In this document: positions 4,058 through 61,700 of the stretch, piece after piece
Layout: every line of letters starts with the position of its first letter
How positions within the stretch are numbered: the first letter of the stretch is position 1
From: Pohlia nutans
Lineage: Eukaryota; Streptophyta; Bryopsida; Bryales; Mniaceae
NCBI GenBank assembly: GCA_022496805.1
Contig: CM040088.1
Location: forward strand, 17,267,001 to 17,331,000
DNA length: 64,000 nucleotides
Direction of reading: 5' to 3'
Notes under the pieces: generated by a model
Databases searched by the model: none
The model's input: the letters and a program-made list of their open reading frames with translations, nothing else
What the model was told of the DNA's origin: nothing
Made by a program: the position numbers and the translations under genes

Positions 4058-4198
4058 TTATATATATTTTTGTAAATCCGTACGGTCAAAATGTTGTTAG
4101 ATTAGTACATTAATTAAGAAAAAAACTTGAAGTAGTTAGAAACCATCTTTCCATTCATCATGCTCATTTGAGCCATTTTGACCTTTAGGCCGGGTTAA

Positions 4199-4496
4199 GT
4201 GTAGTGATTTTTGGAGATTTTTTGGTCGCTTAATTTTATGAGTTGATTTTTCAAGAGCACTTTTGATTCATTTTGAACTAAGATCTTAGAATTTTTTGTT
4301 GAATCACTACAACATGAAATGAGGCATAAAATTTTCACAAATCATCTCCTTTCTAATTGGTTCACACAAGCATCAAACAACTTCCCATGAAATATATAGT
4401 AAGAAAATCCACACTACCAAAAGTGCATGACGGATGAGAAAAGAGCTTGTCATTTTGTATATCGTCCAAAAAATGGATGTTTGGGCAGTTAAGGGT
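4199..4496. mobile_element. Truncated TTAA-A element (reverse orientation)
   Basis: Reverse complement of the left half of the TTAA-A family. It contains GATTTTTGGAGATTTTTTGG and ends CCAAAAAATGGATGTTTGGGCAGTTAAGGG followed by TTAA (4497-4500), read here as separate motifs. The other end is missing. Confidence 0.65.
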
Positions 4497-4500
4497 TAAG

Positions 4501-5862
4501 AGTTTGTTTGTCTAAAGTCCAATGTCATGGTCTACAAAGTGCATTAAAGTTAATCTAAAAGTCATAATGTGATTTTCTCTTTTTGATCTCTATTTTGAAC
4601 ATTTGATAAAAGATATCTAAATTATATTTATATTACATGCATTATTCAACAATTCATGATCACATGCAATCTATTAGCATTAACTTTATTGCTTTCCTAA
4701 TTTGGGTTTTTATCTCACTATTGCAACTCTTAACCAAAATACAAGATCAAATTGTTATTTCACTTCAATGGCTGCTAAAGTGTATTTGAATTCTTGTTGT
4801 TTTTTTGTCAAAAGTCAAATAATTGACTAATGTGACTTTGATTCCATTAAACACACGTGTTCAAAACAACCTTATTTTTCAAAAAATTGATCAACATGTC
4901 TATCTTTAAAAAACAATTCTACATGCACACTTAGACTTTATTTTATATATAGATATACCAATGGTTGGAAATGCCCTAATTTAAACTTTGTCAAAATTGT
5001 GTATCAACTTCCTCAATTGTTTGTGATTCATGCAATGAAATCTGAATTTTTTTCATTTTCTTGATTTAAAAATTCTTTACTATTACCATAACAATCTATC
5101 GCAATTGTAAGAGCTAACTTTTCTCTTGAGTTCTTGAATGTAGATGGCAACTAAAAAAAAATGTTTAAGAGTTTACCTTTACCATTGAGAGTATAGGAGA
5201 TATATTGCATTGTGGTTTGGGAAAACAAAAACAATAAATTGTCGTTTGGAATAAAGGGCTTATGTTGAGAATAAATGGGTAATTATAATTTCATTTAATA
5301 TCTTCTAACAATTACATGCACAAAATTGATTTTGTATTGTTCTATAGCTACTGCCCTATGTTTAAATGCGTCAATTATCTCAAACAAAAATAAAATTACT
5401 AAACTATTTCCAGTCAAATTCAAAAAATTGTAGTGCAATTTTTTTCAAACTAAAACGTGTCGATGTTGATTTGGTTCAAAAAGAATTAATTTATTGCTAT
5501 GTAATACAAACTCCAATGGACAAGGACAAATTTTTGATAGTGTAAAACAACCATTGATAACTATGACATCAACAATCAATTAAAGCACCATTGACTATCC
5601 CCCTAATCTATTTTTATTAAGTGAAAAGTCATATTCAATATTTAAAAACCACGTGAGATGAAGATGAATCACCAATGACCCAAACACATGAACCAAAGAT
5701 GATTGCTCAAGCACATGAAAAGCCAACCTCACTATTAATCCATCTGCTACATTTGGACATTCTTTTTTATTCTAAATTCTTGTCTCTTATGAATTCTCTT
5801 CTAAGTTCTCTTCACTTTATCTATGTCTCATGAATTGGCATTGTATAGAATCAATATACAAA
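4501..5862. other. AT-rich intergenic DNA without a recognisable gene
   Basis: Only short chance ORFs and no splice-linked coding pattern were seen on either strand. No complete inverted-repeat element was recognised here. Confidence 0.5.
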
Positions 5863-6297: not shown

Positions 6298-9200
6298 TCA
6301 ACACCATACTCGTCTTTTTTCCTTGGACAACAAGAAACTCATGCTCTTTTCAAGTCCCTTCAACAATCCAACAGTTTCTGCTTTCAAGCATTCACGTGAA
6401 GCTGGTGCATCATCCATGGCGTAGGGATTCCGTTCACTTGCTTTCCGAGACTTGTCCTCATGAGCATCCTCACTGCACATAAGTTACTCCACCTTGGTCA
6501 GATTACTACTGGAATGGGTGTGCGAGAGATTTTGGGGAGAGATCACAGGAGCGTCCAAGTGATTGCAATAATTGCGATCACTAGCACAACTTGGATGCTC
6601 CTACAATCCTTCCCCACGATCTCTCGCACACTCATTCTAGTCATGTACGTATTTGCTATGATTTGTGCCATCAAATCGTAGTTAGGAGATGACATCATGT
6701 AAGGTAGAAGATACTATTTAACATATGTAAGAGAATCTCCACCAACACTCTGGATAGCTCTTTGGCTCTGGAAAAATGGATGTGCATGGGTTGGTGAACG
6801 ACTGTGACGCTGGATAATGTAACCGGGGCTAGGTGCCCTCAAAACCCACACAATCCATGCGTGGTGACGTGTGAGTGGCTTACTTCGGAGTCTAATTGAG
6901 TGATGTTGGTGGGGAACTACATGGTATGCCCTGTAATTTTTGAGTGCAATTCTGAGTTGCTGGTGGAGATTCTGTAAATTCTAGTAGTGTATTGTATTTG
7001 TGCCATCAAACAGTAAGAGATGACATCATGTTTCTGTAACTCCATACCAAAATCAATTATGAGCAATAATAGGATTTAATACCCTCTTTGACTCTCATGC
7101 AAAAGGAGGCAATTTTAGATTCCATGTACTTGTAACAAGAACACCTTGTGGAAGAAAAGTAGAAGTTAACTTGATTTTTGCTGTTGTGATGAAATGTGAG
7201 ATACTTACAAGATGGAAGGGGAAGTAGCTGGTCTTTTGAGATCTTCGCCGTTGATTGCACCAGGATCTGAAGCATTATATTTCTGCCACTGCTTCCGCCT
7301 CCGCCTTGGAGATAGTTCTTCCCGGTCATTTCCCATGATATTACATGGTTTCATGGCACGGTCTCTTGAGACACAAGTTTCTATTGTTGTTGTGGTGGTG
7401 GTGGCATTGCAAGGCTCGCCAGCTGCTGCATTTCGCAATGGTGTGGTACGAGTTGTTGAGCTTCCATTGAGTCGGTGAACCTCTCCTTGCAAGGCCTCGT
7501 ACTGGAGCACACGGGGTAAGTCTCCTCCGTTGAACACACTGCTTCCACATTCCAGCTCCCGTTGCACTTTCCTCACCAACTTCATAATGCCAGCCCCACC
7601 CACTTTCGGGTCAATCCGCAAGTACAACTCTGCAATAAAACCCACAATGCACCCTATTTGCAAACATTTTATGAGTTATCAAACATCCTTATCTACACAC
7701 AGAACTCTTTTATATCACCACTTTGGTAATCACGCAAACTTGTCCAATCACACGTGTGCACAATAGCAACTATTCTCTGATTTGATACAGGACCACGTGA
7801 TAATAACGAGTTTAGAGTGTATATTTGAGGGGGAAGGTCAATGGCATCAAAAAGTTACATCAACAATGAAGTGAGAAAGTTAGAGGAGGTTACATATAGA
7901 AAGGGGTGTAAGAGCTGGCCTGCAAAAAAAAAAAGCAATCTTATGATCATGTTCCAAGGGAGCTAGTACTTTGAGTTGTAATTGGTAACAAACCTGAAAA
8001 TTGCTGAAAAAGAACTGCATGGTTTTGACACCCCTGAAGTTTCTTGCTACGTGAAAATTGAACCTTTGTACTTGGCGTTTCAACTCGGCTCGAGTTAAAC
8101 ACTACAGATTCTATGCGCATTGATTCCTATAGACAGTTAAAAGAATTCAACTCGAGTCGAGCTGAATGTATAATGAATACTCCCTTCTTCAAACAATGAA
8201 GAGATTGAAAGCAAGGGTCCGAGTTAAACCTTAGTCCCTACCATGAAATACACTACATTTGTAGTACAGCTACACTATGAAATAAGCTACAGAGCCTCTT
8301 GTAGCTTTGTAGCTGCACTACAAAAAGGACAGCCTCTCATAGTTGCTTGTTTTGTAACTATTTAATATGTGATCAAATATGAACCCATTCACTTTTTCAT
8401 CATCAATGACTACACTTCGCTACGATTCGCTATGTAACAATTATAAATTATCGCATATAATATACCTGACAGGCAACCCAGCATCCAACCAAGAGCAGCT
8501 TTGCGCCGCAGCTCTTGATTCTCCAGCTCCATTCGTTTCTTGGATTGCTCCATCCGTTTCTTCCGTTGTAGTGCAACCTCCTCGGCTCTTTGAAGCTCCA
8601 GCTGCAATTCATCTACAAACGCTTTCAACTCCTGGTTGAATATGAATCAGTTTAGTACATATTGTCAGCTATGCACTTGATAAGACATGAAAATGCTGGT
8701 TACCACATTATGAATCAATAATTACGATCCCGTCACCTATATTGGTTCCTGTTACCAACAACAACTCGACTATTCATACACTCCTAGGCTAAATGTCTAC
8801 GGGCACTGATCTTTGAATGGAAATGAAATTGTCTATTGTCGCTTGTAATGGCTCACTTTGAATTTGCACAAGAAACTCATATGTATTAATAAGAAATTGA
8901 TCTCAACAGATTTGAATATCTCTCCACAACTCCATACATCCATAACATTCAGTAGGGATTGCCGTAAGGACTGCTTTTTGGCTCCATCCATCAGGAATTT
9001 AGGACCTCACTGATTTTTAACGATTTCCGTGCAACATCCAATATTTCATGGGTTTGTACATTTTTTGCACAGGTTTCATGCTAATTCTGCACTGAATCCG
9101 CAAGGCTTCTACATTCACTCTTTTTGTTATCTAACAAAGTGCAGAATCCATGCGGAATTAGCGCGAAATCTGTGCAAAATCCGTGCAAAAAATGTACGAA

Positions 9201-11351
9201 CCCATGATATATCGGACGTCACACAGAAATCATTTAAAATCCGTGGGGTCCTAAATTCCTGATAAGAAGCTTCATCCAAGTTACAGATAAATGGGAAATT
9301 GTGGTAAACACAGGAATAGTATCTGTTGTAAACACAGGATGAGTGCTCAAATGGGCTAACCTCAGCTCTTTTATGCTCCATTCGGAAATTCCACTTGTGT
9401 TGCCTGGTCTCGTCCTTCATAACGTCCAGTGCAGTTTCGATATCCTGACCCTCGAATTGATACTTTCGGGTGGACTTTGACAATAAGACCCGTTTCGCCA
9501 CCTTCGAGCCACGGCTCAACTCATCCTTGAGAACCTTGTTTTCATGTCGCAAAATGGCTTCTCGCTCTTCGTACTCTCGCTGCTGATGTTTAAACTCCGT
9601 TTCCAATTTGAAGAGATAATCCAAAAGCTCCCTGCTCTTCTGTTCGTACTCGTCAATGATGTCTTGACGTAAGCATGCCACCTCAAACCTCTCTCTGTCA
9701 AGGGCTGTTGTCTTATTGCTCACATCCTTCTGCATTCAAATGAACATATCTCTGATCACCACTCAATTCTAAAATGTGGCTTGCCACGTAAAAACACTAG
9801 TTGTCGCATTGTTCTTGTGTGTATGGAGGATGCGCCGGCATTTTCGCACATGTTACATGCATTATAAGTGCGAAATCAATAACATACCATTTCTGTAACG
9901 TGGTTGTCGTGCATTTTGGATATCGTATTGGTATGATTACCATACTTTTTAGTAAATATTGTAACGACACTATTTTTGTGCATCAAACATGTGGTAATAT
10001 GTGCGAATATAACACGAACCTATGAAATAACATAAATCGTGTTGTATTCGCACAAAGCTATGAACCTTGTAATTAGAGATGCGCAATAAAGTCACTATGG
10101 AAAGGTACAAGGTCGAGTCATTTTGGATGTACCATGGTACTAAGGGTTGACGCTGTCTGAGCAACCGACTCCTTCGTGATATCCATACTAGGCATCGTTC
10201 ACATGGTGAGCCTCATAACCTGCAGTCCAGGCCATTGTCACCTACGTAACTCATCTTTGGACATTCAACCAGAACGAGGGTGGAATGACCAGCATTATTG
10301 CAGGACATGTGTTGTCTCTGGATGCATCACCCTCATCAAAATAAGGAAGACCATGCAATATGATAGAGAGATTTGATGGCAAGGCAAGCTAGGGCTGAAG
10401 AGTTCTGGTACCTCTGTGTGCTACCACCAGAGTTTGTTGATGGGATCCCTATCCTATACTTCCATGGGACCAGGTTTCTTGCGAGTTGCTTGATCAGGCA
10501 TAAAGATATTCGAACTCATTGAGGTACTCTTTCCTACAAAGAGACAATAATCCCACGACTGCATGTGAGCCATCAGAAATGCACAATCTAAGGGCACCTA
10601 CAGCCATGCAATATGCTCAAAAAGGTCACATGCAAGAAGAATCAAATACCAAGCCACAGAAGTATTTGATGCCCTGTGTACGAAATTACATTACCATCAA
10701 GAGTCATGGTAGACACACATGGAAGTTTTGAGCTCCAAACTTTCCCCGGTTTAGTAGAAATGTTCTCCGTCAGCTGAGAGAAGCTCTTAACTTGTAGAGC
10801 TCCAGCCTTCTCAAAAGTATACTTAGCTTGAGCATCTAGCCTGTTGACATTCACATCCAGAAACACAAATCAATCCTTTAAATAACTGTAAATTTGGAAT
10901 GAAGTCAAACACTTGAGATGTGCCTTTGGGACCAGGGCAGTGTTTAACTCACAGTAGCAGAAAATCACAGGTGAACTAAAGAACAGCGGCAATTCTATCA
11001 AACGTGAGATCTGAACAGACTTCTATACCGTACTCGTTCCCACTCCTTAGCAACCAAGATTCGTAAAAATCTCCTGCAAAAGCCAAAACCTACTGAAAAG
11101 AATGCAATGCTAAATATGATATGAAGTTCAGATAGGCTTCTACTTGATACCAAAAATCAATTACCTCCTCTTATTATGCCATGGAATTCCAGTGGTGTTG
11201 ATCACCTTGACAATTCAACACGTAACAATGTCTCAAGTCCTATGGTTTGTGGAATTCCGTACATTCCACAAGTCCAAAAGTCCCCAATCGAACACAATGG
11301 ATTCTGAATCTCACTCAAAGCGCAAACCAACTCCTTTCTAAGAAAAGCCAT
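6298..11351 (-). CDS. Coiled-coil protein of unknown function (multi-exon; one junction unresolved)
   Basis: Exons that join in phase: 11351-11206 (start ATG in AACATGGCT, protein MAFLRKELVCALSEIQNPLC...), 10840-10695, [junction unresolved], 9729-9361, 8631-8466, 7629-7209, 6472-6298 (stop). The donor at 7208 is a perfect GTAAGT. The phase-1 end of the second exon does not match the phase-0 start of the exon at 9729, so a small exon is missing or another donor is used. Residues encoded by 9729-8466 form a long heptad-rich coiled coil (FEVACLRQDIIDEYEQKSRE; ELQRAEEVALQRKKRMEQSK). A Gly/Leu-rich stretch ALGWMLGCLS follows. The last two exons are Arg/Ser/Pro rich (ELSPRRRRKQW) and look disordered. 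Total about 475 residues. I do not recognise the family; a structural or cytoskeletal role would be a guess. Several introns hold fold-back MITEs. Confidence 0.6.
6505..6648. mobile_element. Fold-back MITE in an intron
   Basis: Arms of about 58 bp (AATGGGTGTGCGAGAGAT... against ATCTCTCGCACACTCATT) pair around a short loop. It lies in the intron 7208-6473, about 30 bp before the acceptor of the last exon of the coiled-coil gene. Target duplication unclear. Confidence 0.65.
8079..8168. repeat. Short inverted repeat in an intron
   Basis: TTTCAACTCGGCTCGAGTT at the left is mirrored by AACTCGAGTCGAGCTGAA at the right, with about 50 bp between. It lies in the intron 8465-7630. Confidence 0.5.
8991..9262. 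mobile_element. 272-bp fold-back MITE in an intron
   Basis: TCAGGAATTTAGGACC at the left and GGTCCTAAATTCCTGA at the right are exact inverted repeats. The complementarity continues imperfectly inward (TGTACATTTTTTGCAC / GTGCAAAAAATGTAC). It lies in the intron 9360-8632 of the coiled-coil gene. Confidence 0.75.
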
Positions 11352-12124: not shown

Positions 12125-13960
12125 CTACATACGGTCCTGAGTTGCATATATTGGCACCGCCGCCTTCTGCTCTGCTTTGCCCTGAAAAGGACCCTTCCGT
12201 ACAAACTCTTCCAATCTGCTCAAGGTTTCCGTCGCCGGGATTTGTCCACGCTCAATTGCACCACTCAGAGCGGTGGTCATGGCCACACAGCACACATGCC
12301 GCCATTCCATTGCATCTTTGTTAGTTTCCAAGCGAGGATCTAAAAGATAATCGACCACTTCTCGGGATGCAACAAGCTCACGTACACACCAAAGTCGAGC
12401 CAGCATAGGCGAGGTGAAGCGATACATTGCGAGTCTTACCTCAGGAGACTGCTGGAAAAAAACCAGAAACATTCCAGCAAGCGTACGATTGGAAGATCTC
12501 TCTCCAGCAGCAGAGAACATCATCTCCTTCAGCTGCGCTTCAGCGCTTTCACTTAACAGCACACGACTAGGATCTCGTTCTGAACCGGCTATGGTAGCTA
12601 AGGCGTGTATACCTGCCAATTTGATCCCAAGAGCACGATGCACAAAGGCGGCATTCATCACGTATCGAGCAACCATTGTTCGATCAAAGAGAAGTTCGGC
12701 ACCTTTCACAGTCTTCCCCACGTAAGAAAGCGCATCGAGCGCGTTCTCATACTCAGTACCATCTACTCTCTCCTCCGTCTCTTCCAGATGCTTCAAAAGC
12801 TCGCCAAAAGCATTAACAATACTTGCTGCTTCTAATCCCGACATAGACTCGTCGTACAAAGAAGTAAGTCGAGCAGCTACAGTCATAGCACGAGACCGCA
12901 CCAATGAATCCAAAGTAAAATTAGAGATAGTCGAGGTTAATCTCCCAATCAGGTTACCTGCAAGAAGAAACTTAGCGCCATGAGGAGTCACAGCAAGTTC
13001 ACAAAGAAGCTCAAGAGCATTCAGCTGCGCAAGCATATCATCACCGTTATCAAGCTCCGCGGCCAAAACATTCAAAATCCCGGAGCCTTGAACGGCGGCA
13101 GCTGCGGTTTCTGCAACGCCAAAAATCGATGCCCGCCATAGCAAGGGCACGAATTCGAACAATGGATCCAACGTAAAATTAGAGATAGTGGAGGTTAAGA
13201 GGCCAATCAGGTTACCTGCAAGAAGAAACTTAGCGCCATGAGGAGTCACAGCGAGTTCACAAAGAAGCTCAAGAGCATTCAGCTGCGCAAGCATATCATC
13301 ACTGTTATCAAGCTCGGCTGCCAAAACATTAAAAATCCCGGAGCCTTGAACCGCGGCAGCTGCGGTTTCTGAAACGCCAAAAATCGATGCGGCCAAAGCG
13401 AGGGCACGAATTCGAACAATGGCAGAGGAATGGGAGGCCAAATCGCTCAACTCACCGCCCTTGAATAGAAGCTGCAAGCCGTTAGGGTTTCGGGCTAATT
13501 TTCCCAGGGCTTCCGCGGCCGCTTTGGCAACGGACGGATCGTCATCGCCGACGGCGAGCAGCAACGGCGAGGCCAAATTTGAATCGGCCAGGACGCGCAC
13601 CACTCCATCCGAGGCTCCGGGGGCCAAAAGGTCCCCTATTGCCGTGCACGTCAACTTGCGTACTAATGGCGATTCCGCTTTCAATCCGACTAGTGCATAC
13701 TGCAAAGTATGCGGCAATAACTGGCTGCCAAATGGTGTTCGAAAGATGCGTTCCAGAGATGAAACCACGGCCGATTCCAGGCCCGGAACTTCCCGGCCAT
13801 TCTCCAGAGCGCCCAAGAGAACGGGGAGCGGAAACTTGGACAGGAAGGTCTGCGCTGAGGCGTCGGAAATCTCCCCGGGGTAATTCGAAAACTGCGAAGC
13901 GGCCACGGCGAGCAGCGGCAAGTCCACTCCCGATTGATCGTCGATCTCCATGTCCGCCAT
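12125..13960 (-). CDS. PSMD5: 26S proteasome non-ATPase subunit 5-like (PSMD5/S5b) ARM/HEAT-repeat protein
   Basis: Single-exon ORF of 611 residues. The N terminus (FSNYPGEISD..AQTFLSKFPLP, PGLESAVVSSLERIFRT) matches the plant PSMD5-like family. PSMD5/S5b (yeast Hsm3) is a chaperone for assembly of the base of the 19S regulatory particle in nucleus and cytosol. The whole protein is helical ARM/HEAT-like repeats with no signal peptide or membrane segment. ATG at 13960 in the context GCCATTTTCTC/ATGGCGGAC (coding strand). Residues about 185-270 are repeated at about 271-356 (86 residues, 258 bp), so it is longer than the roughly 520 expected. The start of the second copy runs briefly in a shifted frame (FEFVPLLWR in place of VRIRALALA), restored by one extra base. 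It is downstream of nothing on the same strand except the coiled-coil gene, whose start lies about 0.8 kb away. Confidence 0.9.
   Translation of the reverse strand: MADMEIDDQSGVDLPLLAVAASQFSNYPGEISDASAQTFLSKFPLPVLLGALENGREVPGLESAVVSSLERIFRTPFGSQLLPHTLQYALVGLKAESPLVRKLTCTAIGDLLAPGASDGVVRVLADSNLASPLLLAVGDDDPSVAKAAAEALGKLARNPNGLQLLFKGGELSDLASHSSAIVRIRALALAASIFGVSETAAAAVQGSGIFNVLAAELDNSDDMLAQLNALELLCELAVTPHGAKFLLAGNLIGLLTSTISNFTLDPLFEFVPLLWRASIFGVAETAAAAVQGSGILNVLAAELDNGDDMLAQLNALELLCELAVTPHGAKFLLAGNLIGRLTSTISNFTLDSLVRSRAMTVAARLTSLYDESMSGLEAASIVNAFGELLKHLEETEERVDGTEYENALDALSYVGKTVKGAELLFDRTMVARYVMNAAFVHRALGIKLAGIHALATIAGSERDPSRVLLSESAEAQLKEMMFSAAGERSSNRTLAGMFLVFFQQSPEVRLAMYRFTSPMLARLWCVRELVASREVVDYLLDPRLETNKDAMEWRHVCCVAMTTALSGAIERGQIPATETLSRLEEFVRKGPFQGKAEQKAAVPIYATQDRM
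12906..13421 (-). repeat. 258-bp tandem duplication inside the PSMD5-like ORF
   Basis: Copy 1 (about 13421-13164) and copy 2 (about 13163-12906) encode nearly the same residues: ETAAAAVQGSG, NVLAAELDN, MLAQLNALELLCELAVTP. Spacing between equivalent bases is 257 bp at the left end and 258 bp further in, so copy 2 has one extra base just after its junction. Confidence 0.85.
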
Positions 13961-17002: not shown

Positions 17003-17750
17003 CCCCTAACTTCCCAATCGACCATATTTGGTCGATCCAAAATTTCATAGTTTAAAAAAAGTTCAGCCCACTTTAAACATCCATAACTTTTGCAAAAATA
17101 ACAATTTTTGAGCCGCATTTTTTTTCCCTTGTAGATATTGAAATTGAGCAACTTTTCCAAAAATAAATTTTGAATTTTTTTTTACAGATTTTCCTCTAAA
17201 ACCCTCAAAGTGACAGCATCTCAAATTGTCACAATTTCAAAAATCTGCCCGGAATGGAATCTTTAGGTTTTCTACCAAATAAGATTAGTTCTAACATGAA
17301 CAAGGTAACTACCATATAAAACCAATGTTTTTGACCTATCATACTTGATTTCAAGTCAAAATGACTAAACATGTATTTTTTATGAATTTTCGAAGAAAAT
17401 TCTTATAAATTGATTATTAAATAATTCATAGCATTTTTCCAAAATTTAACCATATCACTACTAGAAAATCCAAATGTTCTGTTGATTCGGTCGCGTTGAT
17501 TAGGGACACTTTTCTGGTGATTTGGACAACAATTTGTTGATTTGGACAAAAACGCAACCAAATCAACAGAAAAATGTGTCCCTGATCAACACGACCGAAT
17601 CAACTGAACAGTTGAATTTTCTAGTAGTGTATGGATGTTGTCTTACTGTTGTGCTCTACATATGTTTAAAAATTGAAGTTCATAAAAGTTGAGTAAGATG
17701 GACATTATGACACATTTAGCATTTCAAGAAAACCCTTGGACACTTAGGGG
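17003..17750. mobile_element. TTAA-flanked element of 748 bp
   Basis: TTAA at 16999-17002 and 17751-17754. Ends CCCCTAACTTCCCAATCG and (reverse complement) CCCCTAAGTGTCCAAGGG. It holds a CACTA MITE at 17456-17629. The right-hand TTAA is shared with the next element. Confidence 0.7.
17456..17629. mobile_element. CACTA-type fold-back MITE (TAT target duplication)
   Basis: CACTACTAGAAAATCCAA...TTGAATTTTCTAGTAGTG with almost the whole 174 bp self-complementary (GTTGATTCGGTCG.../CGACCGAATCAAC). TAT on both flanks (17453-17455, 17630-17632). Confidence 0.85.
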
Positions 17751-20068: not shown

Positions 20069-20072
20069 TTGA

Positions 20073-20639
20073 CCCCTAACTGCCTGAGCGTCCATTTTTT
20101 GGACGATGTACAGATTTCATCCATAATTTCTCATCCATCATGCACTTTTTGTAGTGTGGAATTTTTATTGTAGATTCTATGGGAAGTTAGCTTCATGCAT
20201 ATGTGATCCAATTAGAAAGGGGATGATTTGTGAATTTTTTATGCCTCATTTCATGTTGTAGTGATTCACCCACAATTTTGAAGATTTCAGTGTAAAAGTG
20301 CTCTTAAAAAAGTCAACTCATAAAATTAAGCAACCAAAAAATCTCCAAAAATCACTACACTTAGAGTATTACATTTTAACCAATCACAATGAATTTCATC
20401 CGTTGATTGTCAATATCTTATTCGTAATTGAATTACAAAATAATTTTGAATTTCACGTTTCAAATTTTATACAAAATTATTGGTAATAGCAATCATAGAT
20501 CTGACCATATCGATAGAATCTAAAATTCATAATGTACAACTTTTATTCATATACCAAGTTCAAAATATCTCTAGGTTGCATTTTATAATGCATCTTTGCA
20601 AAACTGCTGAATTTGGAGAGGGCTCTAGGCATTTAGGGG
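20073..20639. mobile_element. TTAA-A element, complete (567 bp)
   Basis: Left CCCCTAACTGCCTGAGCGTCC, right (reverse complement) CCCCTAAATGCCTAGAGCCC, TTAA at 20640-20643 and a mutated TTGA at the left. Body landmarks: TCCATTTTTTGGACGATGTA, CACTTTTTGTAGTGTGGAAT, CATAATGTACAACTTTTATT. Sister copies are at 26598, 28713 and 39917, and a truncated one at 4199. Confidence 0.8.
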
Positions 20640-20719
20640 TTAACCCTATTTCGCCCCAAAAAAATGCCCTTGAACAAGCCATCGTGAAATAATTTTAGCA
20701 AAGTGCTAGAATCCAACAC

Positions 20720-24507: not shown

Positions 24508-25083
24508 ATGGTAACCATGCAGCACAATGCAAACATAACATTCAGTAGCCTTCATGCTCACTGCCTTTCCTTCATGCACTCTAGTCATCACCTTGGGCCT
24601 CCACCTGCCCACTTAGCTACTAATGAAGCATTGTTGGGTGTGGAATATTCCAATATTCCACACCCTCTACTGTAGAGCCAAGGGCAGAAACAATGCATGC
24701 TACTGAATGTTATGAAATATCCATGGGAATACAGTAAACAGCCTCAGTTTGGTACAGCAAGACTTCATATCGATCTTCTTGTTGAGGTAAAATATCACTC
24801 ATCCCCTCAATCACTCAACCTGGCCGGGCTGGAACAATTACTCAACGAAGGTGCCATGTGCCATTTCAGTTGCAATTTCAGTTGATCCCCAAACCAAGCA
24901 ACTGAAATGGCATTGTCCCCCAACCAAGCAACTGAAATGGCACGTGGCACCTTCAAAATTCCCTGCTTGAGTGATTGAGGGGATGAGTGATATTTTACCT
25001 CAACAAGAAGATATGAAGTCATTTTCTGTACTGAACTGAGGCTGTTATTCGCATGGATATTTTGCAATCTGCATGGTTACCAT
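24508..25083. mobile_element. Large fold-back element with a nested MITE
   Basis: Arms of well over 100 bp. The outer part ATGGTAACCATGCAG / CTGCATGGTTACCAT, then CAGCCTCAGTT...GTACAG and TCATATC...CTTCTTGTTGAGG / CCTCAACAAGAAG, pair along their length. The left arm is split by the 181-bp element at 24534-24714; without it the two arms line up. Confidence 0.75.
24534..24714. mobile_element. MITE family C (AAA target duplication)
   Basis: Ends CATAACATTCAGTAGCC / GCATGCTACTGAATGTTATG and an internal GGAATATTCC palindrome. AAA flanks both ends, and the uninterrupted opposite arm of the host fold-back shows the empty site (GCAAAATATCC). Other copies: 47664-47820 and 56432-56747. Confidence 0.8.
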
Positions 25084-26198: not shown

Positions 26199-27299
26199 CT
26201 CTTAAATGACAAGGGGGGTAAGGGCAAAACCTAGATGTGTTGCAAAATGTTATTTTTGCAACTTTGATGAAGTTTGGTCCAAAAGAGAAATTGAGACGCA
26301 TAATGTTTAGTAATTATTCATAGGGTCAAACTTCCAAAAATCGTTTTTGATACTCATATAATAAATATAGAAGCATTTAGTGTTAAAATTCACCAAAATT
26401 ACAAGTTTATTTTTAGAATTTGAAATTTGGTGTGATTGGTTAAAATTAGATGTTCTATTCCAAAATTTATAAGGCAAACTTTTCAAATGAGAGAACATCA
26501 TTATTTTTCCAAAATAGTAAGATTTCTAACACTAGGACAATATTGAGGTCTTTGTCTTTGAATAGTGAACCTCAATATTGCAAATGAAATGTATTAACCC
26601 TTAACTGCCCAACCATACATATTTTGCATGATGTACAGAAGTGAACTTCGTTTTCTCATCCATCATGCACTTTTTGCAATGTGAAATTCTTACTAAACTT
26701 TTTATGGGAAATTAGCTTCACGCACGTGTGATCCGATTAGAAAGTTGAAGATTTGTGAAACTTTATGTCTCATTTCATGTTGCAGTGTTTCACAAAAAAA
26801 TTTGAAGATTTTAGTCTAAATGTGCTCTTGAAAAAGTCAACTCATAAATTAAGCAACCAAAAAATCTCAAAAAATTACTACAATTAGAGTATTGCATTCC
26901 AACCTATCACACCAAATTTCATCCACAAGTTGTCAATATCTTATTTGTAATCAAATTACAAAATAATTTTGAATTTTAAGTTTCAAATTTTATAGAAAAA
27001 TATTGGTGATAACAATTGCACATCTAACTGTATGGATAGAATCTAAAATTCATAATGTACAACTTTTATTCATATATCAAGTTCAAAATATCCCTCTTAG
27101 TTGAAATTTAGAATGCATCTTTGCAAAACTACGCAATTTGGACAGGGGTGAGGACGTTTAGGGGTTAAACAACACTAGAACATGATCTCTACCTCCAATT
27201 TCGACAAAATATCAAAACTTGAAAAATGTCATTTCCTAACTATGGGTAGTCATTGTGTTTGGGCTGCAACCAGAAAATGGTCGATCGGTCACTTAGGAG
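26199..27299. mobile_element. TTAA-D element split by a TTAA-A element
   Basis: TTAA at 26195-26198 and 27300-27303. Left end CTCTTAAATGACAAGG and TTAA-D body; right end GAAAATGGTCG...GGTCACTTAGGAG. The TTAA-A copy at 26598-27164 sits inside with its own TTAA flanks. Confidence 0.75.
26598..27164. mobile_element. TTAA-A element nested in TTAA-D
   Basis: Left CCCTTAACTGCCCAACC, right GAGGACGTTTAGGGG, with intact TTAA at 26594-26597 and 27165-27168. Length 567 bp, the same as the copy at 20073. Confidence 0.8.
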
Positions 27300-28708: not shown

Positions 28709-28712
28709 TAAA

Positions 28713-29288
28713 CCCTCAACTGTCTAAGCGTCCATTTTTTGAACAACATAGAGATTTCATTCATGTTTTCTCAATCGTCATGCACTTTTTGCAGTGTGGA
28801 TTTTTTACTATAGATTTTATGGGAAGTTAGCTTCATGCATATATGAGCTGATTAGAAAGGGGATGATTTGTGAAAATTTTATGCCTCATTTCAAGTTGCA
28901 GTGATTCACCAAGAAATTCTAAAATCTTAGTTCAAAACGAATCAAGTGCTCTTGAAAAAGTCAACTCAATAAATTAAGAAACCAAAAATCTCCAAAAATC
29001 ACTACATTTAGACTATTACATTTCAACCAATCACAACAAATTGCATCCACAAATTGTTGATATATTATTTGTAATCGAATTACAAAAGAAATTTGAATTT
29101 TGAGTTTCAAATTTTACACAAAGATATCGGTGATAGCAATCATAGATCTTACCGTATGAATAGAATTTGAAATTCATAATGTACAACTTTTATTCATACA
29201 TCAAGTTCAAAATATCCTTCTTAATTGCATTTTATAATGCATCTTTGCAAAATTGTCGAATTTGGAGAGGATTGTAGGCATTTAGGGA
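28713..29288. mobile_element. TTAA-A element (left flank mutated)
   Basis: Left CCCTCAACTGTCTAAGCGTCC, right GTAGGCATTTAGGGA before TTAA at 29289-29292. Family body present throughout (CACTTTTTGCAGTGTGG, CATAATGTACAACTTTTATT). Confidence 0.7.
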
Positions 29289-29316
29289 TTAAGAATGCAA
29301 GAACAATCATGGTTAA

Positions 29317-31984: not shown

Positions 31985-33087
31985 TCAATAAACGTCTGGA
32001 TGGTAACGTCCAGGCATAGAGCTGGCATCTTGAGCCATGCGCAAGTGCATCCGCAGCGTGTAATTGTTCAATTCCAATGACCGCACTTGCTCCTGGTACT
32101 GCCCAATCACTTGCTTGGCCTGTTGCAACTCCCGGGTCCGGCCCTCGTGTTCCTGCTGCCGTTCGTGTTGGATCGCCACTGCCCGTTTGAGAATATGCCC
32201 CTCGCGAAGCATCACCTGCATCAGTGATTCTTTTTGTTACAAAATTGCTACATAAAATTTTAACTGGCTAATTGATACAAAGGATTTTTGAGGAAAAAAA
32301 ACAGGAATAATAGCCAGATTTCTTAAGATGTGTCGCCTCTTTAGGTATCACCCAGGTATTTCCTAAGTAGCACCTACGTAGCACATGTGTATTACTCTGA
32401 TATTACCAATATAATAACCCCTGAAGGACCAAGGACTCATGATTTTAAAATGACAAATTCAATTGATCATAATGTGAAAAATATAATTCGCATGAGACCA
32501 AATTTTATATCACCAGAATCAGCGAAGAATATTGCATGTGTTGATAAAAAAAATGCAAAGAAATTTGAACATAGACACTTCACATGAAACCTACTCAAAA
32601 CTACCAAGAAAAACATGAGGCCCAATTTGGGCATAAGGGGTTAATATGAAAAGAGCATCCAAGGACGGAGCCTGGATTGCTCTTCAAGCCACGGAAAAGT
32701 AGCAAAAATGCTAAACCTTCTCCAGACAAAAAAAACACAGACCTGCATTTTCTCTTTCAAATCCGCATTCTCTTTCTGCAAGTCCTCCATGGCAATGGTG
32801 GATCGCGAGGCCACGGCGTTCTCAACAGCTTCCAACGCAAGCTTCCCACGCACATGCGCATCGTTCAAGTCCCTCGCATTCAGCATCTCCTTCACCAAAT
32901 GCTCCACCCATCCTTCCGTCTCCGAAGGCCCTGTACTTGTCCCCAGCGTTGCCGCGTCCGCTAAAACCCTCTCTACATGACTCGGGGACCGCACAGGGGA
33001 TCCACTTGGACGTAAACGCTTGCTCCGCGGGGGCGAACTCTGCTGCTCCTCGAAATGTGACCGCTTCCGAATCACCGCCGCAGACAT
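31985..33087 (-). CDS. CUE-family-like coiled-coil protein (ubiquitin-system related), two exons
   Basis: Exons 33087-32743 (115 codons) and 32215-31985 (76 residues plus stop); total 191 residues. N terminus MSAAVIRKRSHFEE with a basic SKRLRP stretch (possible nuclear signal). Then TEGWVEHLVKEMLNA, and a C-terminal coiled coil with HILKRAVAIQHERQ and the ending MPGRYHPDVY. These C-terminal motifs match plant proteins annotated as ubiquitin system component CUE (Arabidopsis At5g32440 type, from memory). The CUE domain expected between the N-terminal basic region and TEGWVE is not visible in this uninterrupted exon, so this may be a CUE-less member. Its only coding intron (32742-32216) is filled by an introner-like repeat carrying a nested TTAA-B element. 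The gene is moderately GC-rich with telo-box motifs just upstream. Confidence 0.65.
32222..32740. mobile_element. Introner-like hAT-type repeat filling the CUE-like gene's intron
   Basis: Ends (plus strand) CAGTGATTCTTTTTGTTAC and ...GACAAAAAAAACACAG. A perfect 8-bp direct repeat ACCTGCAT flanks it (32214-32221 and 32741-32748), i.e. ATGCAGGT on the coding strand. The donor GT is in the first copy and the acceptor AG in the second, so the intron is the element plus one copy of the duplication. About 290 bp remain after removing the nested TTAA-B at 32418-32640. The body is homologous, in inverted orientation, to 59739-60628 (shared GAAAAGTAGCAAAAATGCTA and CACATGTGTATTAC). Confidence 0.8.
32418..32640. 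mobile_element. TTAA-B element nested in the introner-like repeat
   Basis: Left CCCCTGAAGGACCAAGG, right GGCCCAATTTGGGCATAAGGGG, flanks ATAA (mutated) and TTAA at 32641-32644. The homologous repeat at about 59840 lacks it and reads ATATATTATTATGAAAAG, an empty site. Confidence 0.8.
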
Positions 33088-39796: not shown

Positions 39797-39916
39797 GTAA
39801 GGGTGACATAGTTTGCACAAAGCTTTTCCTAGTAACAATTGAAAATGGATGCAAAGACGTGCAAGAGTGGAAGATATGCAAGTTCCAGAGTAACAACTGC
39901 TCTTGCCAACACATAA

Positions 39917-40496
39917 CCCTTAACTACCTAAGCGTCCATTTTTTGGATGATGTACAAATTTCATCCACGTTTTCTCATCTATCATGCACTTTTTGCAATG
40001 TGAAATTTTTACTATAGATTTGATGGGAAATTAGCTTTATGCATGTATGAACCGATTAGAAAGGGGATGATTTGTGAAATTTTTATGCCTCATTTCACGT
40101 TACAATGATTCACCAAAAATTTCTAAGGTCTTAGGTCAAAACAAATCAGAAGTGCTCTTGAAAAAATCAACTCATAAAATTAAGCAACCAAAAAATCTCC
40201 AAAAATCACTACACTTAAAGTATTACATTTCAACCAATCACAACAAATTCCATCCACAGGTTGTCAATATCTTATTCGTAATCGAATTACAAAAGAATTT
40301 TGAATTTTGAGTTTCAAATTTTATACAAAAATATTGGGGATAGCAATCATAGATCTTAACCATATGGATAGAATCTAAAATTCATAATGTACAACTTTTA
40401 TTCATACATCAAGTTCAAAATATCCTTCTTAGTTGCATTTTATAATGCATCTTTGCAAAACTGCCGAATTTGAAGAGGACTGTAGGCATTTAGGGG
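39917..40496. mobile_element. TTAA-A element
   Basis: Left CCCTTAACTACCTAAGCGTCC (flank ATAA), right CTGTAGGCATTTAGGGG then TTAA at 40497-40500; 580 bp. Confidence 0.75.
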
Positions 40497-40698
40497 TTAA
40501 AGCCTGATTATTGTCAAATGCAATTCCCAGTACATAGCTTCTCTGTCCTTGAAATTGTATGAGCATAAGTGTTATCTCATGTGCCCCAAGCCAAATTCAA
40601 AAGAAAGCACGACATTCTAACCTTACAGTTACCTTGATGTGGGGTTAAGATCCTCTTATTTGGCTTGATGAAGAATGCAGTTTGCATAACAGGTATTT

Positions 40699-58754: not shown

Positions 58755-61700
58755 CGAATCACCTTGAACTGGTCAAGGAAACTGTCGAGTTGAGCAGAGC
58801 AGGAAGCGCAGGATAAGCTCGTTTCTAACTCCAGGTTCTCGACATCACAACTGGAATTCACTACAAGGAAACTGGTCGCTTCTCACTGCTATTTTGAGCC
58901 ATTCCAGAGTTGGTGACTGCTTTTGGTCACATGGGACAAGGAAAAGTTACCTTTTCCGCAATTTCAGTCAGTGAAAAGCGACGGATTTGCTTGTAGTGGA
59001 ATGAGTCTCTATCAAGGCCCATGCAGCTTCAACTCACGTCGTAGAAACGTGTGCACCCGCTCTAAAACCTCCAACGCCATGGCCTTGCTACCCGTGATGC
59101 CGAACAAGAACTCCTCCGCATATCTGACATACCTCACCCTGGCATACGGAGTCTCGATTTCCCCATCATATTGAATAGCATTCCGCTTGTTGGAGCCGGT
59201 ATTCAACTCGGCTTGAATGCGGGTGACCTCCATGTCCAGCTGGTGGTAATAGATGTTGCACAACAGGGCACTCAATCGGCTTCCCTGGTCACTCATGCTA
59301 ATCACATTCATCTTGAACATTCGCTGAAGCAGAGACAAAAACTCCTTGTCCTTGATCCGCACCGACAAAATACGCAGCAGATGCTCATGTTGCAGTTTCC
59401 CAAATGCAATGGGGGACTTGTAGTGGAGAAACCAAGTTGTTCCCTTCCACGTACTCTTGACCAATTTCAAGGCCATGTGGCAGGACCTGGCCAATTTGTA
59501 GAACACAGGCTCATACATCCTCTCCAACTCTGCCCTCACAGCCTCGGCAACAATCTGGTCCCTGGGATTCACAACCAGAATCGTTCTCGGAGCTCCCGCC
59601 TTCCCAGGCCTTTTCACATGGATTTGTGAAACGGGTGAAAATTGATACGTCCCGGATCGTAATTTCTCTCCTATGTGGTCGAAGAAACTCATACTGAGAT
59701 CGTTCCAGGCTTCATCGCTCTTCCCACTCAGTACCTGCCAGTGATTTATTTTGGTCAGAAGACAGTTTAGCATTTTTGCTACTTTTCCATGGCTCCTTGA
59801 AGAGCAATCCAGGCTCCTGGGATGCTCTTTTCATAATAATATATAGGTAATATCAGGGTAATACACATGTGTTACCTAGGTGCTACCTAGGTGCTACTTA
59901 GGCAATACCTGGGTGATATCTAGGTTTAAAGAGGCTACACATTTTGACTCCATGTAGGAAACTTGGCTATTATTCCTTCTTTCCTTTTCAAAAATCCTTT
60001 ACATCAATTAGCCAACCCAAATTTTATGTACTCCCTTCGTTTTGAAATAAGTGTCCTAGTTTTTGGCAATTTTGTTTTTGTCCTATATTTTATACTTCAA
60101 ATGTGAGCCCTATCCACTTCAAATGGGGTGGACAATAGAGTTAACCGAAAAGAGTGTCTCAAAGTGGAAAGAAACCTTAAACTCACCTTAGACTTGTTTT
60201 GAGTTCAAAAAGACTGCAAAACTAGTCTATGGTGAGTTGGAGAATAATCTAAAGCAAGGCCCTGCACCACCATGAGGTATGGAACTCGTGACCTCCCCAG
60301 TGCTAGAGGAGAGTTCCCACATGCTCCCCCAAGCCAAGAGCCCCGACCATGGAAACTATTCATGAACAATGATCGTCAGAAAATATAATTATAGGAAGAG
60401 AACTCCACTTGAACTAGGCTTGAAAAGTAGTTTTTTTTTTTCAGATAACTCTAATGAGAGTGACAAAAACTACATATTACTATTAAAGATAGACTATTTT
60501 TCGAGTACTGAGACGCAATTTTGACAATAAACGTGTTAAGGAAAAAAAATGCCAAAAACTAGGACACTTATTTCGAAACAGGGGGAGCAGCAATTTGGCT
60601 AAAATTAGCAACAAAAAACAAATTACTGGTACCTGAAGCTTCGACTTGATTCGGTCATAAGCTGCTGAAAGAGTCTCTGGATCAGCTAGTCGTTCCATAA
60701 CATCCTCACAAGAGTGATTCAAATCCTCAGTGGCCAATTCAAACTCTGGTTGCTCATGATCTGAAATGCTTGGCAAATGGTGGTGAAATGCTGGCGGCCG
60801 GGACTCAGCAATTTGCGTGCCTTTGAGGTCTTCACACGCCTCTTCGATGGAGAGCATGAGATTCTCGTAGGCTGTCTTTACAGAGACGGGAAGATACTCC
60901 CAGCCAAGTCTACCGAAGTGATCCTCCTCCTGTTCCAGCAGCTTCTTCAGATCGTCGCTGGTCATGAGAGGGTGCTGGTCAGTTAAGGTTAATGCAGCTT
61001 TGGTGCCGAGTTCCGTGGCTTTGTCAAAAATGGCCTGCTTCGCCTTCGAGCCTGAATGAGTGAATTCATCAACCACGTGATTACGACCAAATCCTAACAC
61101 TCTCCCCCTACGTCATTTCCATTAATTAGATGGAAGGAACAAGAGTTTCACAAAAAAAATTAAAAATGGGATTGGCTCTCACTGCCTCTTATTTACATTA
61201 TCATCATATGCTACTTAACTAAAGAGTTTCCTACTAAACACATATCATGTGAATACAAGAAGTGAAGTGGAATTAACTTGTAGATTTTCTCCTCTTTTCA
61301 CCTTTTAAGCATTGGAATTTCCTCCCACCTGGAGGGTATAAGAAGCATGGAAGAAGTTTGTTTCATTAAGATAGGAGCACCAATAACTGAGAGGACCAGT
61401 TACCACGAGCTTTAGTAGCACCAATAACTGGGAAGCATGGGACTAAATCCTAGTAGCAGGAATCAACAGAACTCCTTGTTGTTTTGTTTTTTTCTGGTTC
61501 ATTCAATACTATTTTTGGTTCTCTTGCACATGGTTTTGGTAACCTTCTAGTTTTGCTTACTAGTTCCTATCGATCCAAACCTTCAAAAATTCATATACAA
61601 TTGGATATAAGTTAGAATATTGTGATTTTTTTCTTTGAACTCTCTGATTTGGGGATGTTTGTATAGCTTTTCCCACTCAACTGCACCAAATCATTAGTGA

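Follow-up and report, generated by a model that had tools for sequence, protein, structure and literature searches.

An intron within a 64,000-nt stretch of contig CM040088.1 of the moss Pohlia nutans (in the following: the window) was very probably created by the insertion of a hAT-like MITE into a coding exon, with the target-site duplication providing both splice sites. Copies of the same element were found as putative introns in further genes, and from these DNA data we conclude that the moss genome apparently harbors a hAT-like introner family. On balance, and with less assurance, we favor the broader reading of a genome-wide hAT-type introner in a land plant: at each of its ends the inverted repeat would serve as one half of a 5' splice site, any copy entering an exon at AGGT would represent a ready intron whatever its orientation, and about a hundred or more introns would have arisen in this way, earlier than the last genome duplication and possibly also after it.

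The host gene is encoded on the minus strand of the window. Coding exon 1 (32743..33087, ATG at 33087) and coding exon 2 (31985..32215, including the stop codon at 31985) are separated by a GT...AG intron of 527 nt (32216..32742), the splicing of which was deduced from the reading frame. This intron consists of exactly the inserted element (32222..32740) and eight bases; in the coding strand the order is ATGCAGGT, CTGTG...AATCACTG, ATGCAGGT. The original prediction had described a repeat with inverted ends, a perfect 8-bp direct repeat around it and a GT and an AG derived from the first and the second copy of the duplication, respectively. All of this was borne out: self-BLAST of the window detected a second copy of the element at 59739-60030, ATGCAGGT is present without mismatch at 32748-32741 (containing the GT donor) and at 32221-32214 (containing the AG acceptor), and removal of the 527 nt at both AG/GT points would rebuild an uninterrupted frame of 191 amino acids. 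The element ends with CTGTG and CACTG, and the two ends agree at 12 of their first 20 bases only. CTGTG, a weakened end, is probably a later change from an ancestral CAGTG, since the homeolog on C3 carries CAGTG at this position. Nested within the outer MITE lies repeat B (minus strand, approximate borders 32415..32644), which is a high-copy repeat in its own right and has TTAACCCC/GGGGTTAA-like ends. The best named homolog of the 191-aa product derives from Ceratodon purpureus (81%), followed by liverwort, Sphagnum and seed-plant proteins. Its designation as CUE-like held in part: the product contains no CUE domain itself, but matches part of longer homologs with PF02845, and the gene is termed CUE-family-related here.

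A second intron of the same family (898 nt, 59735..60632, minus strand) was found in a reverse-transcriptase/maturase-like gene, a label based on weak similarity to bacterial group II intron maturases. Here the element copy (59739..60628, plus strand) is antisense to its host gene and carries an inverted-repeat insert. It is flanked by GTACCTGC (59731..59738, plus strand) at the putative acceptor (minus strand GCAG/GTAC) and by GTACCTGA (60629..60636, plus strand), which differs from the other copy by one mismatch, at the putative donor (minus strand TCAG/GTAC). Excision of 898 nt at these two points results in an open frame of 360 amino acids, for which Pfam named no family. None of the 11 aligned homologs has an insertion at the junction; P0131 shows a gap of one residue slightly downstream. 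Among the homologs are P0132 and P0125, ORFs located on contigs of 40.6 kb and 26.6 kb, respectively. The insert within this element copy (approximately 60031-60587) has CTCCCTTCG... inverted ends following TA, and we take it to resemble Stowaway elements.

Several other features of the window were recorded. A repeat of about 580 bp occurs in four copies which are 80-88% alike (20072-20643, 26594-27169, 28711-29292, and 39915-40500) and in a partial copy (4195-4504). Long imperfect palindromes matching their own reverse complement are located at 24715-25062, 8990-9263, and 17450-17634, and two adjoining direct copies of about 263 bp each, 93% alike, at 12902-13422. ARAGORN in its bacterial setting predicted a tRNA-Leu (CAA) on the minus strand (13520-13615).

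For the characterization of the element family the window was compared with itself and with the genome. The second element copy starts with CAGTGATT immediately 3' of GTACCTGC, and repeat B has five other matches in the window with E-values of 2e-16 or better. With up to one mismatch, CAGTGATT occurs 81 times in the window vs. a shuffle mean of 78.5; the motif is not enriched and is thus by itself no evidence. In the whole genome (698 Mb) the window intron matches nine other places over at least 430 of 535 bases with 73-77% identity. Of the 44 matches, about 33 are confined wholly or nearly to the B part. B was ruled out as a part of the original insertion, as it is a separate repeat and B-less copies are frequent. 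Most of seven aligned genomic places begin near CAGTG and finish near CACTG. The B-less element comprises about 290-320 bp, and 14 copies were used to create a consensus of 303 bp. A search with this consensus returned 3506 first-look candidates, a figure which does not represent a confirmed copy count; 40 of them were scored and showed 92-97% identity. The element is short and present in high copy, has CAGTGATTTTT/AAAAATCACTG inverted ends and a target duplication, and is non-coding as judged from its short length, which are the attributes of a MITE. An 8-bp duplication (up to two mismatches) was detected in 36 of 51 copies, and 15 are without a recognizable duplication. The 8-bp duplications together with the CAGTG-type ends suggest that the element is hAT-like.

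Relatives of the window gene within the same genome enabled a comparison of occupied and empty sites. With the window product as protein query, 15 matches were obtained in the genome: two are the window exons, two belong to the C3 homeolog and 11 are other paralogous places. The C3 homeolog (C3:16554918-16556860) is 98-99% identical and contains the intron with a length of 1361 nt; here, too, the ATGCAGGT repeat is perfect, and the start reads CAGTG. All of the 11 other places align unsplit across residue 115, the position of the intron, so that the gene is split exclusively in the C4 gene and its C3 homeolog. The paralogs C5:15204635-15205231 and C6:15392948-15393526 (80-81%) possess no intron and carry a single ATGCAGGT at the intron codon; the remaining nine places are more distant (35-59%) and were compared at protein level. 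The original prediction that relatives without the repeat would lack the intron thus agrees with these same-genome paralogs, and no intron at the same codon without the repeat was seen among the relatives read. For the maturase-like gene the empty site was found at protein level. Homologs of the window product from elsewhere are likewise ungapped through the intron site, for example the P0004 ORF (a cluster of 18 contigs, the longest 21.9 kb); the long contigs suggest that ORFs of the P0004 type represent unspliced DNA.

Distances at fourfold-degenerate positions (44-52 sites) are 0.125 for C4-C3 and 0.105 for C5-C6; comparison of one pair with the other gives 0.82-0.90. Provided that it was never lost, the window intron would have been gained between the two duplications. 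No gain after the recent genome duplication was found among the three host genes with located homeologs (window gene, 2-isopropylmalate synthase, riboflavin synthase), all of which are split in both homeologs; they retain the element in both at 91-99% protein identity. A peculiarity is the isopropylmalate synthase gene on C1 (L027, G000:C1:28965096-28966157), the intron of which has no in-frame stop, leaving a frame of 743 amino acids open through the element; the C2 homeolog is split.

Further genes carrying the element as a putative intron were identified on the basis of restored reading frames. The frame was restored by script in nine further copies (L004, L005, L006, L008, L007, L027, L044, L054, and L055), and in a Rab-like exon (L039) the element intron was read by eye. 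L008 is compatible only with a GC-AG intron. A Pfam domain spans the junction in one of five products submitted (P450 in L006) and in two of four others (HMGL-like in L027, HIRAN in L055). The products of L004, L005, and L054 each contain a domain that ends short of the junction, and no domain was detected by Pfam in the products of WIN2, L007, and L008. The L027 product shows no gap at the junction when aligned with the 2-isopropylmalate synthase 6e1j, and the L006 product aligns across the junction to plant P450 structures. AGGT directly abuts the element in eight of the 11 AGGT introns of this first set, according to a count by eye, and wherever a locus was read, the acceptor AG falls within the second duplication or its remnant.

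The 51-copy sample, from which the homeolog of the window intron (L012) was kept apart, allowed a comparison of intronic and other copies. AGGT with a matching AG occurs in 10 of the 36 copies with a duplication, a fraction that is no family-wide estimate, as the copies were picked by similarity to the window intron. In these 10 copies the empty-site frame on the same strand is open for 48-176 codons on the shorter side; in the other 26 the better strand reaches 8-45 codons, with the exception of L061 (62) and L008 (112). The difference is pronounced (Mann-Whitney p = 5e-6; Fisher at 40 codons p = 4e-6), with the restriction that some copies are homeologous pairs and hence not fully independent. 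Among near-consensus copies, of which 20 of the 40 scored were sampled, none is an AGGT intron, and AGGT is absent from all 13 that have a duplication. That the family is mainly intronic was accordingly rejected, as the near-consensus copies are not introns. B-carrying copies were introns more often (five of the seven first fetched) than near-consensus copies (0/20).

The original prediction had proposed a test for an excess of such repeats at intron boundaries, and element ends indeed show an excess of AGGT. The exact string AGGTCAGTGATTTTT, which places AGGT immediately next to the element end, was counted at 100 genome sites (reversed control: 4), whereas ACCTCAGTGATTTTT, with ACCT and therefore the wrong splicing sense at that end, occurs at 11 sites (own reversed control: 5), a difference with a binomial p of 4e-19. 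These exact-string counts omit copies in other registers or with altered ends, e.g., both copies of the window. From the 100 AGGT sites, seven of which had been read before, a sample of 20 was drawn by taking every fifth site from the third, with two known sites swapped for a neighbor. An open frame is restored in 17 of them (95% interval 62-97%), and no frame restoration was obtained for L096, L099, and L103. The second duplication was found by script in 12 of the 17; in the other five (L084, L085, L089, L090, and L101), for which the script returned no duplication or an incorrect one, the acceptor was chosen by hand among candidate AGs using a duplication remnant and protein continuity. One of the open sides is short in L087, L094, L097, and L101 (32-44 codons). 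Pfam was run on ten of the 17 products, and in nine a domain extends over the junction, namely P450, a phytochrome GAF domain, the PCRF domain of a release factor, SBF, ammonium transporter, GH17, MFS_1, GRAS, and GT92. For the riboflavin synthase product the displayed Pfam stretch, one of two, does not cross the junction.

Altogether, similar introns are located at unrelated positions in 29 loci (28 by script and L039 by eye), including L089, which has no match to the element model. Nine elements are in sense and 19 in antisense orientation, with one left unassigned; p = 0.09 (the first 12 entered by hand) indicates no firm bias. L089 (G000:C3:30655223-30656637) contains an intron of 569 nt with a duplication remnant and, at its donor, AGGT directly followed by CAGTGATTTTT; it perhaps belongs to a second introner family that shares these ends.

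In the postulated mechanism, a non-autonomous cut-and-paste hAT-like MITE with CAGTG ends would enter a coding exon at ATGCAGGT and duplicate eight bases. The first copy of the duplication would close the upstream exon (ATGCAG) and provide the GT, the second would provide the AG and open the downstream exon (GT), and excision of the element plus 8 nt would restore the original codons exactly. The consensus of the donor site is GTRAGT. With AGGT flush with either end, the junction would read AG/GTCAGTG, the element contributing A, G, and T at donor positions +4 to +6. As both ends read CAGTG from outside in, insertions could function in either orientation. Selection may have retained insertions into exons chiefly at those sites where AGGT rendered splicing possible. 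The origin of the window intron by MITE insertion, as originally predicted, gained support from the intronless paralogs with a single ATGCAGGT and from the AGGT excess at element ends.

Other explanations have to be weighed against this insertion model. An older intron could have existed at the window codon and received the element, the 8-bp repeat being a by-product of the splice consensus (CAG/GT at both borders). About half of ATGCAGGT is presumably expected from this consensus, so that the repeat alone is weaker evidence than 4^-8. However, there is no intron sequence outside the element and its duplication, the element ends are independently fixed by other copies, the 11 other paralogous places are unsplit, and the same geometry is repeated in unrelated genes, all of which makes an older intron highly improbable. 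Least probable of all is an ancestral intron that was precisely lost in C5, C6 and other relatives, e.g., by cDNA recombination. One ATGCAGGT would likewise remain after such an event, but the C5/C6 pair, the more distant paralogs and also P0004 and other homologs would all have had to lose the intron, and the transposon structure of the intron would stay unexplained.

A preference of the element for AGGT targets or for genes, with unspliced copies that disrupt genes or reside in pseudogenes, was also considered. We infer the splicing of element introns from DNA alone, target preference and selection are not told apart by the counts, and L027 is open through the element. Against this stand the excess for AGGT in the splicing sense and not for ACCT, the lack of AGGT in the near-consensus copies with a duplication (0/13), the intact frames and domains on both sides of the element and its retention in both homeologs of three host genes at 91-99% protein identity; unspliced copies are thus a very unlikely account. 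Less remote, though still rather doubtful, is an introner from another superfamily with 8-bp duplications. The hAT class was assigned from the ends and the duplication length, and no autonomous partner or transposase with these ends was found. The hAT dimerisation domains, which could not be tied to this element, are nevertheless abundant in the genome (150 scored of 663 candidates), and CAGTG ends with 8-bp duplications are, as we assume, best in accordance with hAT. The insertion of a hAT-like MITE into the exon remains the preferred reading.

The origin of introns is a long-standing question. Clean duplications, empty paralogous sites and the presence of intronic and non-intronic copies in one genome would make insertion, splicing competence and selection separable, and mosses are a plant group with tractable laboratory species. 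Among the matches listed from the open-access literature, judged by titles and the beginnings of abstracts, no report of an introner in a moss or another land plant was found.

The nearest plant precedents are insertions of maize Ds, which are said to be spliced as introns; titles by Dennis (1988), Wessler (1991), and Giroux (1994), listed among the references of PMC3260210, concern such insertions. Like the moss element, Ds is reportedly a plant hAT element that is located in an exon and spliced out. Unlike Ds, which is reported from single mutant alleles, the moss element apparently forms fixed introns at many loci, with the frame restored exactly at the duplication. Introners were reported, in the survey by Gozashti et al. 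(2022; PMC9860276), in 175 of 3,325 genomes, mostly of aquatic life and none of land plants, and some families, as in Florenciella, draw both splice sites from the insertion site. The moss introner resembles those of Florenciella in that the repeated element makes up the entire intron, the target gives both splice sites and the length of the mRNA is unchanged. It differs in its moss host, in the 8-bp duplication which would give GT and AG, in the terminal inverted repeat completing the donor, in the occurrence of both orientations and in the many sampled copies that are not introns. With the introners of Aureococcus, as described in the same survey (PMC9860276), it shares 8-bp duplications and features of DNA transposons; unlike these, which bring both splice sites with them and lengthen the transcript by 12 bp, the moss element would add nothing.
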